Below are positions 41,554 to 56,042 of a DNA stretch of 64,000 nucleotides, one piece after another; position 1 is the first letter of the stretch, and every line of letters starts with the position of its first letter. The DNA is taken from NCBI RefSeq assembly GCF_000092125.1, contig NC_014212.1:2252001-2316000 (forward strand), read 5' to 3'. The stretch is from Allomeiothermus silvanus DSM 9946. GTDB taxonomy: Bacteria; Deinococcota; Deinococci; Deinococcales; Thermaceae. The notes below the pieces were generated by a model, which did no database searches, was not told where the DNA came from, and was given only the letters and a program-made list of their open reading frames with translations. Position numbers and translations under genes: made by a program.

Positions 41554-41598
41554 ATGCTTCTCACTCCTTGTTCACCACGCTCCGTTATCCTTTGGCGG

Positions 41599-44118
41599 AT
41601 GAAACGTGCTCTAGCTCTCGTTTTTGTAGTGGTGAGCCTGGCGCTAGCCGCACCGATTCAAGACCTCGAAATTCGGGGCGGCGACCCGGTGCTCCAGGCC
41701 CTAGCCCGCATTGCCCTACCGTTTGGCGTGGGCGATGAGCCTGGCGACCTCGAGGCGGCCCGCAAAGCCGTATTGGATTCGGGATTTTTCCGCGAGGTTA
41801 AAGTGAGCCTGGAGGGTAACAAGCTAGTAGTTGAGCTGACCCCCAACCCCCCCATTAACGCCATCGCTATCGATAGCAAGGCACTTCCACAAAACGTAGC
41901 CCAGCAGTTTTTACTCAACGAGTTCGCCTTGGGGCCGGGGGCGACCTATAACCCCAAGCGAGCCAATGAAGCTGCCCAGGGGCTCTCGCAGTATTACCGT
42001 CAGCAAGGCTTTCCCTTCAGCCCGGTAGTGACCGTAGAGGTCAGTACCGTGGCCCAGGGGGTCAACCTGACCTTCAAAGTTCAGGAAAATCCCGAACTCA
42101 AAAAGGTCGAGCTGGATAACCCCACGTTTGTGCCCAAGGAGCGGCTCGAGCCCATCGTTCAGGCCATCGCGCAGGGTGGCCGCTTCGACTTCGAACGTTA
42201 CCGCTCGGCCTTCGAACAAATCGCTCAGATCTACGCCCAAGCAGGGTTCCGCGGCAGCGGAGTAGATGTGGGCAGCACTGTGCTGGAAGATGGAATCCTC
42301 AAGGTGCGGCTACGCGAACTCAAGGTGGCGGAGATCCAGGCCAATGGACTGGATGTGGCCAACCTGGGGCTCAAGCCGGGCGACCCCTTCAACTACGACC
42401 GCCTCCTGGATGGGATCAACGCACTCACCAAAGCTACCGGGCGGCAGATCGGCTTCCGCGCCGAGTCGGTGGGGAACGACCAAGTTCGCCTGATCCTCGA
42501 GCCGGGTGAGCAGACCTATGGCCCCATCCGCGAGGTCCGCATCGTGGGGGCCACCGCTATCCCGGAAGCCAGGCTTAGGGCGGCCTTACGCCTCAAACCA
42601 GGCGATATCTTTAACCCGGCTTTGGCTAACGAGGACTTCGGACGTCTGCTGAACCTCTACCGCAGCGAGGGCTACGAGATCGTGGCCCAGCCCAAAATCA
42701 CCTTTGAGAACGGGATCTATACCCAAACCCTTACCGAAGTCAAGATCGGGGGGTACAAACTCAACTGGTCCGGGCCCCACCGTACCCAAGACGAGGTGAT
42801 CCTACGCGAGCTACCCAAGCCGGGCACCCTCTTCTCGGCCCGGGCTTTCCTCAATGGGCTTTCTAACGTGCTGCGCACCGGGGTCTTGGCCGAGCCGCCT
42901 TCACGCACGGTGGAACCGGGGGAGAAACCCGATGAGATCATCATCGTGCTGGGCCTCAAAGAAGGGCGCACCGGAGCCTTCGTGCCCTCCATCGGCTGGA
43001 GCAGCCTCGAGGGCTGGAGCGGCTCGGTCATCTACCGCGAGGGGAACCTGTGGGGCCTCAACCACAAGCTGAGCGCCGAGCTTTCCTTCGGGTTCAACGA
43101 GTCCGGCGATAACTTCTCGCTCTCGCTGGGTTACCAGATTCCCTGGCTCTATCTGGACTTTGCCGACTTCAAAGAAGTCCGCACCGCAACCAGCTTCAGC
43201 ATCTTCACCCGACCGGTCCCCAACTTTGATCTCTACGACTCAAGCGACAACAAAACCGGCTGGCAGTACACCCAGCGCAGCACCGGCTTCGAGTTCGGGC
43301 TCTCCCGCCCGCTCTCCGCCGACCTGCCCAACCTGCGGCTGGGCGCTTCCTTGCGCTACGAGTACAAGTCTCCCAGCCTCGAGATCTACGACCCTAACCG
43401 CCCCTGCGTCAACGACCCCAGCAACACCCAAAAGCCGCAGTGCAGCGACCCCGGCTACACCGGCGTAACCGAGAGCCAGGCTCAAGCCCTGCTCCCCCCT
43501 CCCAGCAACAACCTCTCCTTGGGTCTTTCTGCCACCTACTCCAACGCCGATAACCCCGGCTTCCCCACCCAGGGCTTTGGCGCCAGCGCCCAGACCAGCT
43601 ACGTGCTGACCCTCCCCCGTAGCGGGAACGGTTCGCAGTACATCCCCTTCAGCATCACTGGCAAAACTTACTGGGGCCTGGATCAAGCCAAACGCCAAGC
43701 CCTTGCCCTGCGGGTCTCTACCGGGACCATACTAGGGGTGGCGGGTACCATCCCCAACGAGTCCCTCTACGGGGTGGGCGGTACCCTTGACGAAGCCCTA
43801 ACGTTACGTGGCTACGATCCGCGATTCCAGACCGGGCGGTACTTTTTCACCAGTTCGCTCGAGTATCGCTACGACTTCCGCTTCTCCGAAAATGGCGGCA
43901 CTAACATCATCGGGGTTGCCTTTACCGACCTAGGCACAGCCTGGGGAAGCACGGCCAACCCCCAACCCCAGCTGCACATGGGGTTCGGCCTAGGCATCCA
44001 GCTCGACTTAGACCTCTTTGGAGCCCTGCTGCCTTCGATCCGTTTTGACTATGGGGTGGGGTTTGTAGAGGGGCGGGCCGAAGGAAAGTTTCACTTCCGC
44101 CTGGGGCCGCTATTTTGA
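41599..44118 (+). CDS. bamA: Omp85/BamA outer-membrane assembly protein
   Basis: 839 aa from ATG 41599, close to the length of the Thermus Omp85 protein. A signal peptide (RALALVFVVVSLALAAP) is followed by several POTRA domains (strand-helix-helix-strand repeats to about residue 430; the last begins KIGGYKLNWSGPHR). The C-terminal part is the barrel (YREGNLWGLNHKLSAELSF, GLGIQLDLDLFG) and it ends with FRLGPLF, the terminal strand ending in Phe as in BamA. It inserts barrel proteins into the outer membrane. A loop of about 30 residues has two cysteines (PCVNDPSN, QCSDPG). With the giant TamB gene nearby it covers the Omp85 branch of envelope biogenesis. Confidence 0.95.
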   Translation: MKRALALVFVVVSLALAAPIQDLEIRGGDPVLQALARIALPFGVGDEPGDLEAARKAVLDSGFFREVKVSLEGNKLVVELTPNPPINAIAIDSKALPQNVAQQFLLNEFALGPGATYNPKRANEAAQGLSQYYRQQGFPFSPVVTVEVSTVAQGVNLTFKVQENPELKKVELDNPTFVPKERLEPIVQAIAQGGRFDFERYRSAFEQIAQIYAQAGFRGSGVDVGSTVLEDGILKVRLRELKVAEIQANGLDVANLGLKPGDPFNYDRLLDGINALTKATGRQIGFRAESVGNDQVRLILEPGEQTYGPIREVRIVGATAIPEARLRAALRLKPGDIFNPALANEDFGRLLNLYRSEGYEIVAQPKITFENGIYTQTLTEVKIGGYKLNWSGPHRTQDEVILRELPKPGTLFSARAFLNGLSNVLRTGVLAEPPSRTVEPGEKPDEIIIVLGLKEGRTGAFVPSIGWSSLEGWSGSVIYREGNLWGLNHKLSAELSFGFNESGDNFSLSLGYQIPWLYLDFADFKEVRTATSFSIFTRPVPNFDLYDSSDNKTGWQYTQRSTGFEFGLSRPLSADLPNLRLGASLRYEYKSPSLEIYDPNRPCVNDPSNTQKPQCSDPGYTGVTESQAQALLPPPSNNLSLGLSATYSNADNPGFPTQGFGASAQTSYVLTLPRSGNGSQYIPFSITGKTYWGLDQAKRQALALRVSTGTILGVAGTIPNESLYGVGGTLDEALTLRGYDPRFQTGRYFFTSSLEYRYDFRFSENGGTNIIGVAFTDLGTAWGSTANPQPQLHMGFGLGIQLDLDLFGALLPSIRFDYGVGFVEGRAEGKFHFRLGPLF

Positions 44119-44120
44119 TA

Positions 44121-44466
44121 TGACCCCCACCCGCGGCGTATGTTCGCGGCGATAGCCGAGTAGCGAGTCCAGTCAAGGCAGTCGCAATGAATGCGCTTTT
44201 GCTAGCACCGAGCGGAACGCTACCCCTGAGTACCGGCACCAGCCGGGGGCCGATGGCCCTTCACTTGAGTACCGGCGCCAGCCGGGGGCCGATGGCCCTT
44301 CACTTGAGTACCGGCGCCAGCCGGGGGCCGATGGCCCTTCACTTGAGTACCGGCGCCAGCCGGGGGCCGATGGCCCTTCACTTGAGTACCGGCGCCAGCC
44401 GGGGGCCGATGGCCCTTCACTGCCCTACGGTCGGAGAAACAAACGTCTCGGGTGAGGGCCCCAAAA
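44121..44466 (+). repeat. Dispersed repeat element, copy A (contains 39-bp tandem repeats)
   Basis: Copy A shares with copies B (49425-49620) and C (55655-55775) a core that includes GTAGCGAGTCCAGTCAAGG and GCGCTTTTGCT. Its left end reads GACCCCCACCCGCGG and its right end CTCGGGTGAGGGCCCC, roughly inverted to each other. A five-unit tandem repeat sits inside it. It lies just after the bamA stop; no gene is evident. Confidence 0.7.
44226..44420 (+). repeat. Five tandem 39-bp repeats
   Basis: Units start at 44226, 44265, 44304, 44343 and 44382. The last four are identical; the first differs at two positions (CTGAG for TTGAG and GGCACC for GGCGCC). Each contains GCCGGGGGCCGATGGCCC. Because 39 is a multiple of three, an open frame repeats STGASRGPMALHL, but it has no clear start signal or end. 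Confidence 0.95.
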
Positions 44467-44577
44467 ATAAGAGCACATCGAGCAGATTTCTTATGACCTC
44501 CGTAGAGTCTGTACGGGCGCGCCCTTTACGAGCAATGAGAAAACCCTAAGACCGCTTAGAGGTACCCCCACAGACCG

Positions 44578-44610
44578 AGCCAGGCTCGCCTAAAGCGAGC
44601 CTGGCTTTTT
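44578..44610 (+). terminator. Strong intrinsic terminator
   Basis: A perfect 12-bp stem (44578-44589 with 44595-44606, AGCCAGGCTCGC) around CTAAA ends in five T. It would end transcription from bamA and the repeat element before the next gene. Confidence 0.85.
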
Positions 44611-49383: not shown

Positions 49384-49424
49384 TCCGCTCGTTGACCATC
49401 CCCGTATCTTCCAGAGCGTCTGAT

Positions 49425-49620
49425 AAGGGCCCCCGCCCGCGGCGTATTTCCGCGGCGATGGCCGGGTAGCGAGTCCAGTCAAGGCAGTCGCAATAAATGC
49501 GCTTTTGCTCGCACTGAGCGAAACGCTACCCCACCCCACCCCTCCCTGCGGTCGGCGAAACAAACATCTCCCTGCGGTCCGAAACAAACCTCTCGGGTGG
49601 GGTTTATATCAGGCCCCAAG
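49425..49620 (+). repeat. Dispersed repeat element, copy B
   Basis: It begins GGGCCCCCGCCCGCGG, holds the shared core GTAGCGAGTCCAGTCAAGG and GCGCTTTTGCT, then two GCGGTC-GGAAACAAAC-like units, and ends CTCGGGTGGGG with AGGCCCC just beyond. Ends are opposed inverted sequences. It fills the dnaG to rrf2 convergent gap, and no gene is evident. Confidence 0.7.
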
Positions 49621-55612: not shown

Positions 55613-55654
55613 TGTTGGGCAAACCCCTCGAGCCCTAGCGGTATCGTTCCTAGG

Positions 55655-55775
55655 GGTTCAGTAGCGTTCCGCTCAGTGCGAGCAAAAGCGCATTCATTGC
55701 GGCTACCTTGACTGGACTCGCTACCCGGCTATCGCCGCAAACATACGCCGCGGGTGGGGGCCCCAAAGAGCAGAA
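55655..55775 (-). repeat. Dispersed repeat element, copy C (inverted)
   Basis: Read on the minus strand it starts GGGGCCCCCACCCGCGGCGT and holds GTAGCGAGTCCAGTCAAGG and GCGCTTTTGCT. It ends near ACGCTACTGAACCCC. Its outer flank AGAACACATC at 55770-55779 resembles the flank of copy A (GAGCACATC at 44470-44478). Confidence 0.7.
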
Positions 55776-56042
55776 CACATCATGGGAAATTCTTATCCCT
55801 TCGTGTGCTACTTAACCTAGCCCCCAGGATGTGCAACAAGAGGGGGTGCTATGCGACCTGACCGCCTCCGTACTATATCGCGTTTCCCACCATTACGCCT
55901 CCCACGGTGAGGCGAAATGTACTCGGCCCAGCAAACCCCGCTGTACCGAGTATTCGTGGGAACCGCTCTATTGACGCAGCAACCCTTCTTGAGACTACCC
56001 TAGTTAGGCTGACCATAGGATCGGTGTACTCGAGGCGAAATG
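55776..56042. other. Gap without a recognisable gene
   Basis: Between repeat copy C and the rplS terminator I see no plausible gene. A 64-codon open frame at 55907-56101 has no supporting start signal and an unlikely composition. Confidence 0.5.

Follow-up and report, generated by a model that had tools for sequence, protein, structure and literature searches.

A cassette-bearing miniature transposon family of Allomeiothermus silvanus with TNA target-site duplications and a 39-bp unit that also occurs in a second family and within genes

We examined a 64,000-nucleotide stretch from the genome of the hot-spring bacterium Allomeiothermus silvanus DSM 9946 (hereafter the window; G000:C1:2252001-2316000, in a genome of 3,721,669 bases and three contigs), which contains three copies, A, B, and C, of a dispersed element. 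As a first-pass annotation made from the sequence of the window had described, all three lie between long open reading frames (ORFs), share a core in differing orientations, and encode no transposase; the core is on the plus strand in A and B and on the minus strand in C. Their relatedness is far above chance: used as a query, copy B matched C with 89% identity over 111 bases (E = 4e-36) and A with 91% identity over 103 bases (E = 8e-36). The places first assigned to the copies held, while their borders were revised (Table 1). The copies belong to a family of miniature inverted-repeat transposable elements (MITEs) that is new in sequence and unusual in its target-site duplication and that, in A. 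silvanus, carries internal cassettes and is partly decayed.

The limits of the element are defined by compact copies in relatives, which are approximately 120 bp long and run from TATGAACCCC... to ...TTTCTTA. This is the typical length in one relative, G011 (G, C, and L with a number denote genomes, contigs, and loci); across the family, copies span about 120-375 bp and contain no transposase ORF. The two ends are related but unequal, with a short type (S, TATGAACCCC..) and a long type (L, ..GGGGCCCCAAAAANAAGAACANATCAA....TTTCTTA), and form short, imperfect terminal inverted repeats (TATGAACCCC and TAAGAAACCC). The family proved far larger than the three copies first recognized, and the segment that they share did not prove to be a conserved gene fragment. 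Searching the A. silvanus genome with copy B gave at least 38 matches (40 of 62 candidates were scored), which clustered into 32 places. With matches to S-end and L-end patterns, the total is about 35 places in both orientations, four of which were added from S-end matches judged real by their letters. G011 contains about 100 copies.

In A. silvanus, a core of about 105 bp is followed by variable cassettes and then by the far end. Twenty-two distinct cores were scored, 13 of which had an end on both sides. In eight of them, the core adjoins the L end and lies far from the S end; in three (copy A, L005, and L015), the arrangement is reversed; and two (L020 and L027, the far match of L027 being weak) have an S end on both sides. 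The interior is thus flipped relative to the ends in some copies, as seen when L003, L005, L015, and L020 are compared with other copies of the species. This reversal accounts for the flanks that A and C were first thought to share outside the core: the likeness is real, but both sequences are the L end of the element (Table 1).

To follow the family in relatives, we compared the compact copy L020 with 41 genomes and found matches in five: A. silvanus, G001 of the same genus, G003, G011, and G022. The letters of the G022 match reveal it to be coding sequence. Copies in G001, G003, and G011 keep both ends while their interiors differ, and two of the three G001 matches are core fragments only. 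Across 50 Thermaceae genomes, the S-end pattern occurred 118 times in G011 (control 10), 35 times in A. silvanus (control 5), and 16 times in G001 (control 7), with control-like numbers in most others. The L-end pattern occurred 67 times in G011 (control 0), 11 times in A. silvanus, twice in G001, once in G003, and 0-3 times in the rest. Since counts are near control in most of these genomes, the spread is patchy, as for a mobile element. We found no report of this repeat in the open-access literature, and the available parts of the A. silvanus DSM 9946 genome paper (PMC3035272) do not mention such a family.

The duplicated target was determined from G011. Of 78 loci examined, 59 had both ends and 48 passed a filter that kept copies with few end mismatches and dropped composite and poor ones. 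The triplet TNA was on both sides of 31 of the 48 copies, and the middle base was identical in 25 of these 31, compared to 10.5 expected; none of 100,000 shuffles reached 25, the maximum being 21. Empty sites were sought by joining the flanks of five G011 insertions, with a single TNA kept at the junction, and comparing these sequences with 18 genomes of that genus. The L144 site was gapless in all three aligned relatives, each of which had one TAA. For L117, 12 relatives aligned; five were gapless and had TAG in place of the G011 TAA, and the rest had small indels. For L193 and L222, the junction contained one TGA and the right flank was variable, while for L192 the only locus among those fetched was the occupied site itself. 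The middle base agrees between the two flanks, and the extra triplet is missing from empty sites; the target-site duplication, which the first-pass annotation had suggested looking for, is therefore 3 bp of sequence TNA. A TA duplication, the rule for IS630 elements, was first favored from the ends; we rejected it, and with it membership in the TA-duplicating IS630/Tc1 type, as the middle base matches on both sides and a TA duplication would leave extra bases at the empty sites, which are gapless.

Identical triplets also flank copies in A. silvanus, with TGA on both sides of copy A and TCA on both sides of L010, L011, and L022. In G001, the counterpart of the Omp85-like gene that precedes copy A ends in TGA and is followed by no element, the copy B site is a short intergenic region without an element, and the copy C site contains another remnant. 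Copy A stands between the Omp85-like gene and a hairpin with a T run (44578-44606). As an equivalent hairpin is close behind the Omp85-like gene in G001, copy A lengthens a possible transcript end.

Any TNA is a stop codon (TAA or TGA) when read on one strand or the other, and since the triplet is duplicated, insertion on a stop codon restores the stop. We counted triplets that terminate an open frame 60 or more codons long and with third-position GC content (GC3) of at least 0.6. Such triplets numbered nine among 27 G011 insertions with identical TNA and 44 among 429 TNA triplets nearby (p = 0.0018, Fisher test). The majority of these insertions are not at such a stop codon. The enrichment indicates that gene ends are favored or tolerated as targets.

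Candidate movers came from the L-end matches. Two such matches in G015 (Meiothermus granaticius) are the right end of a transposon with helix-turn-helix (HTH) and DDE_3 domains (PF13358, E = 3e-17; HTH_23, E = 7e-13; also PF13384 and PF13551), and candidate D, D, and E residues are invariant in five transposase sequences. A transposon of about 1.2 kb in G003 begins with TGA and TATGAAACCCGCC (S type), ends with CCGGGTTTCTTA and TGA (L type), and has HTH and DDE frames with TTTAAAAAAAC between them. In IS630-type transposons near G003:C40:667715 (L163) and at L263, HTH and DDE occupy two frames that meet at a run of A (TTTAAAAAAAC); the A run is possibly a site of programmed frameshifting. Scanning contigs with five such proteins gave 23 loci in Thermus, Meiothermus, cyanobacteria, Skermanella, and others. 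RefSeq labels such genes "IS630 family transposase," and plasmid records assign several of the scan loci to the IS630 family.

The flanks of these insertion sequences (ISs) resemble those of the MITEs. Both flanks could be read in 16 IS copies, 11 of which had identical TNA (5.9 expected; 496 of 100,000 shuffles reach 11). A programmatic search found few of the IS ends; most were read by eye, and the 16 rows were compiled from those readings. They leave out copies with one end unreadable or missing (L263, L264, L272, L168, L173, L371, contig-edge copies of G041 and G011, and the degenerate L167), copies whose far end was untraced (L169, L176, L265, L268-L271, and L166), L179 (left end unclear), and L374 (the same insertion as L373). 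Autonomous transposons match both end types of the MITE in G003, the right end in G015, G041, and G001, and one end in A. silvanus. Similarity of the G003 MITE to six ISs extends beyond the terminal repeat (p = 0.003-0.046). Since the two end types and, for the most part, the TNA flanks recur in IS630 transposons of Thermaceae, in all likelihood IS630-type transposases moved this MITE family.

Several observations weigh against this interpretation. In A. silvanus, we found no intact transposon that matches at both ends, and the nearest relative, C1:2919563 (L164), encodes a protein 61% identical and has one matching end only. In G011, IS630 copies carry other ends, and no intact parent was found. 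Similarity beyond the terminal repeat is mixed for A. silvanus copies and is not significant for copy A. One or both flanks are without TNA in 17 of the 48 G011 copies, several A. silvanus copies have nonidentical triplets (TGA and TCA for B and L016; TCA and TAA for L020), and the exact copy A junction is unreadable in G001, as the right flank differs and is not alignable. Published descriptions also differ, as the parts of the sources seen here give TA for IS630-Spn1/RUP (PMC2229807) and a 2-bp duplication for ISTth6 (PMC6352166), and we found no report of a TNA-duplicating IS630 element in the open-access literature. The search for a parent transposase with matching ends, which the first-pass annotation had suggested, led to related IS630 transposons in Thermaceae and not to an intact parent in A. 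silvanus, and we infer that this species no longer has one. The other end of L164 is of a different IS630 type (..AAAAGGGTA), and L164 is perhaps a recombinant of two types.

A model that accommodates most of these data, to which we assign a probability of roughly 85%, is that the family consists of MITEs with S and L ends that are moved in trans by an IS630 DDE transposase, duplicate TNA, and have gained cassettes in A. silvanus. A transposase encoded elsewhere would recognize the S and L ends, excise the element, and insert it at a TNA triplet, duplicating these 3 bp. Insertion on a stop codon would restore the stop, and gene ends would be hit more often than nearby TNA triplets. Copies in A. 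silvanus would then have gained and multiplied cassettes between the ends, the 39-bp unit among them. What we observed directly are the copies, their ends, the TNA duplication, the empty sites, and related IS630 transposons whose ends and flanks are of this kind. The copies are short, lack a transposase gene, have terminal inverted repeats and a target-site duplication, and are multiple and dispersed, all of which characterize MITEs. Of the two readings first proposed, a miniature transposon or a structured repetitive element, it is the miniature transposon that these properties and the related autonomous transposons support.

An alternative is that the family is a structured RNA, or an element resembling repetitive extragenic palindromes (REPs) or bacterial interspersed mosaic elements (BIMEs), kept for a function at transcript ends (terminator, stabilizer, or attenuator), with mobility incidental. 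All three window copies are downstream of a gene, B and A fold better than shuffled sequences (z = -2.9 and -5.1), and the terminal stem contains some paired changes (three of 13 pairs). However, 46 copies yield only a weak consensus fold (-10.4 kcal/mol), whose 13 pairs belong for the most part to the terminal inverted repeat; the ends are conserved between genera and the interiors are not; and no Rfam family matched in the window. The z-score of copy A is probably driven by its tandem units. We take folding to be a property of inverted ends and arrays that is no proof of RNA function, and consider a conserved RNA role improbable. Movement of the MITE by an IS5-type transposase is about equally improbable, if anything slightly more so. 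Some IS5-family groups duplicate TNA, and no intact IS630 parent was found in A. silvanus; against this, Thermaceae IS630 transposons, the only elements whose ends were compared, have S-type and L-type ends and in most cases the same TNA flanks. We regard an IS200/IS605 or RAYT-type single-strand element as very unlikely: although A. silvanus has Y1 transposase genes (five matches) and the unequal ends with a hairpin resemble that type, such elements to our knowledge make no target duplication, and the 3-bp duplication and the empty sites without an extra triplet led us to reject both this mode of insertion and REP/RAYT membership.

The cassette that forms five tandem units at 39-bp spacing in copy A is the most surprising part of our findings. 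A 29-base pattern with up to three mismatches occurred 50 times at 25 loci in A. silvanus, 105 times in G041, and twice in G001, and was absent from G011 and G003. With two mismatches, the unit was present in eight of 111 genomes of the phylum, all Thermaceae. Sorting the 25 A. silvanus loci by reading them assigned eight to this MITE family, six to a second MITE family, and ten to lone units; the one remaining locus, C3:89354 (three mismatches), may be chance. Two lone loci, C2:22910 and C2:246559, are in duplicated DNA. Nine of the ten lone units were examined, and all are in open frames, with at least four different readings (Table 1).

To find empty sites of lone units, the joined flanks of eight sites were searched in 31 genomes and then aligned. 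Genes without the 39 bp were gapless in relatives for L308 (two), L309 (one), and L313 (six), the last within a gene that, from a motif, we take to encode imidazolonepropionase (HutI). The same L313 insertion is present in G002 and G006, though not in G001. For L316, relatives likewise have the gene without the unit, four with equal spans and one with a deletion. For L315, six relatives had 6-9 other bases, and the G001 match of 297 bases was of equal length. No relative among the loci fetched was alignable across the junction for L310, L311, or L317, and a search among plasmids for an empty allele of L310 gave no match. As relatives carry several of these genes uninterrupted, the unit inserts as a discrete 39 bp. 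Junction bases revealed no clear duplication, and their letters suggest insertion between C and T.

The second MITE family has unrelated ends (TACCGGATTC.. and ..GAATCTGGTA) and carries the same 39-bp unit. Its copies, with ends TACCGGATTCAAAAAG.. and ..GAATCTGGTA, are L288, L289, and L291-L294 in A. silvanus and L297-L307 in G041; their flanks are apparently TTA or other TNA, and some border on first-family copies or disrupt them (L033, L124, and L125).

We lean, at somewhat better than even odds, toward a combined proposal. The 39-bp unit would be a mobile unit of its own kind, among the shortest DNA able to spread: it would enter genes as 13 codons in at least four frames, grow in tandem, and have colonized two unrelated MITE families, which carried it further. 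In addition, a broad IS630 clade of Thermus, Meiothermus, some cyanobacteria, and Skermanella would duplicate TNA instead of TA, and so could insert harmlessly on stop codons.

Table 1. Copies of the element in the window and lone 39-bp units in A. silvanus
Feature	Position or locus	Strand	Remarks
Copy A, full element	44119..44493	+	from short end TATGACCCCC... through the core, five 39-bp units, and a 26-nt unit to long end ...TTTCTTA
Left TGA of copy A target-site duplication	44116..44118	+	stop codon of Omp85-like ORF 41554-44118
Right TGA of copy A target-site duplication	44494..44496	+	
Core of copy A	44124..44226	+	common to B and C; genome match at C1:2296124-2296226
Five tandem 39-bp units in copy A	44226..44420	+	YTGAGTACCGGCRCCAGCCGGGGGCCGATGGCCCTTCAC
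26-nt type unit in copy A	44424..44444	+	CCTACGGTCGGAGAAACAAAC
Long (L) end of copy A	44455..44493	+	
Copy B	49424..49608	+	TGA 49421-49423 left, TCA 49609-49611 right; shortened L end left, S end TTTATA right; two 26-nt units at 49545-49594
Copy C	about 55653..55795	-	retains an intact L end (55757-55795); the S end at the other side is lost
Lone-unit loci in genes	G000:C1:546191, 299001, 1319924, 1636055, 2055839, 3135972; C2:22910, 128675		
Lone-unit reading, LSTGASRGPMALH type	L308, L310, L316		
Lone-unit reading, EYRRQPGADGPSL type	L311, L315, L317		
Lone-unit reading, VKGHRLPASAGTQ type	L309, L314		
Lone-unit reading, EGPSAPGGRRYLG	L313		

Our results add a MITE family with an exact insertion rule (TNA, sometimes a stop codon) to the thermophilic Thermaceae and call into question whether TA duplication is universal among IS630-type elements. 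They also raise the prospect that very short DNA can spread in frame within genes and between transposon families. The family resembles RUP of Streptococcus pneumoniae and Correia/NEMIS of Neisseria, which are about 107-155 bp, have terminal inverted repeats, and lack a transposase. In the part of the source available, RUP is proposed to be moved in trans by IS630-Spn1 and has TA target sites (PMC2229807); unlike RUP, the A. silvanus family duplicates TNA and has an interior with exchangeable tandem cassettes. S. pneumoniae BOX elements (boxA-boxB(n)-boxC) are alike in architecture, with outer parts that stay constant and tandem middle units that vary in number (PMC3049150, in part); the middle units of the A. 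silvanus family also occur in another MITE family and in genes. Thermus IS630 elements such as ISTth6 are similar in having a DDE_3 transposase with a separate HTH frame and ends of TAAGAA or TATGAA and TTCTTA. ISTth6 is listed with a 2-bp repeat in the section consulted (PMC6352166), whereas the IS copies read here, which we do not equate with ISTth6, mostly have identical TNA. For an in-frame palindromic element in Thermus, we found no report in the open-access literature. The closest parallel to the 39-bp unit is the Rickettsia palindromic element, which, in the excerpt seen, is inserted in frame in protein genes (PMC10969869); it is about 150 bp long, compared to 39 bp for the Thermaceae unit, which also builds tandem arrays and resides in two MITE families.
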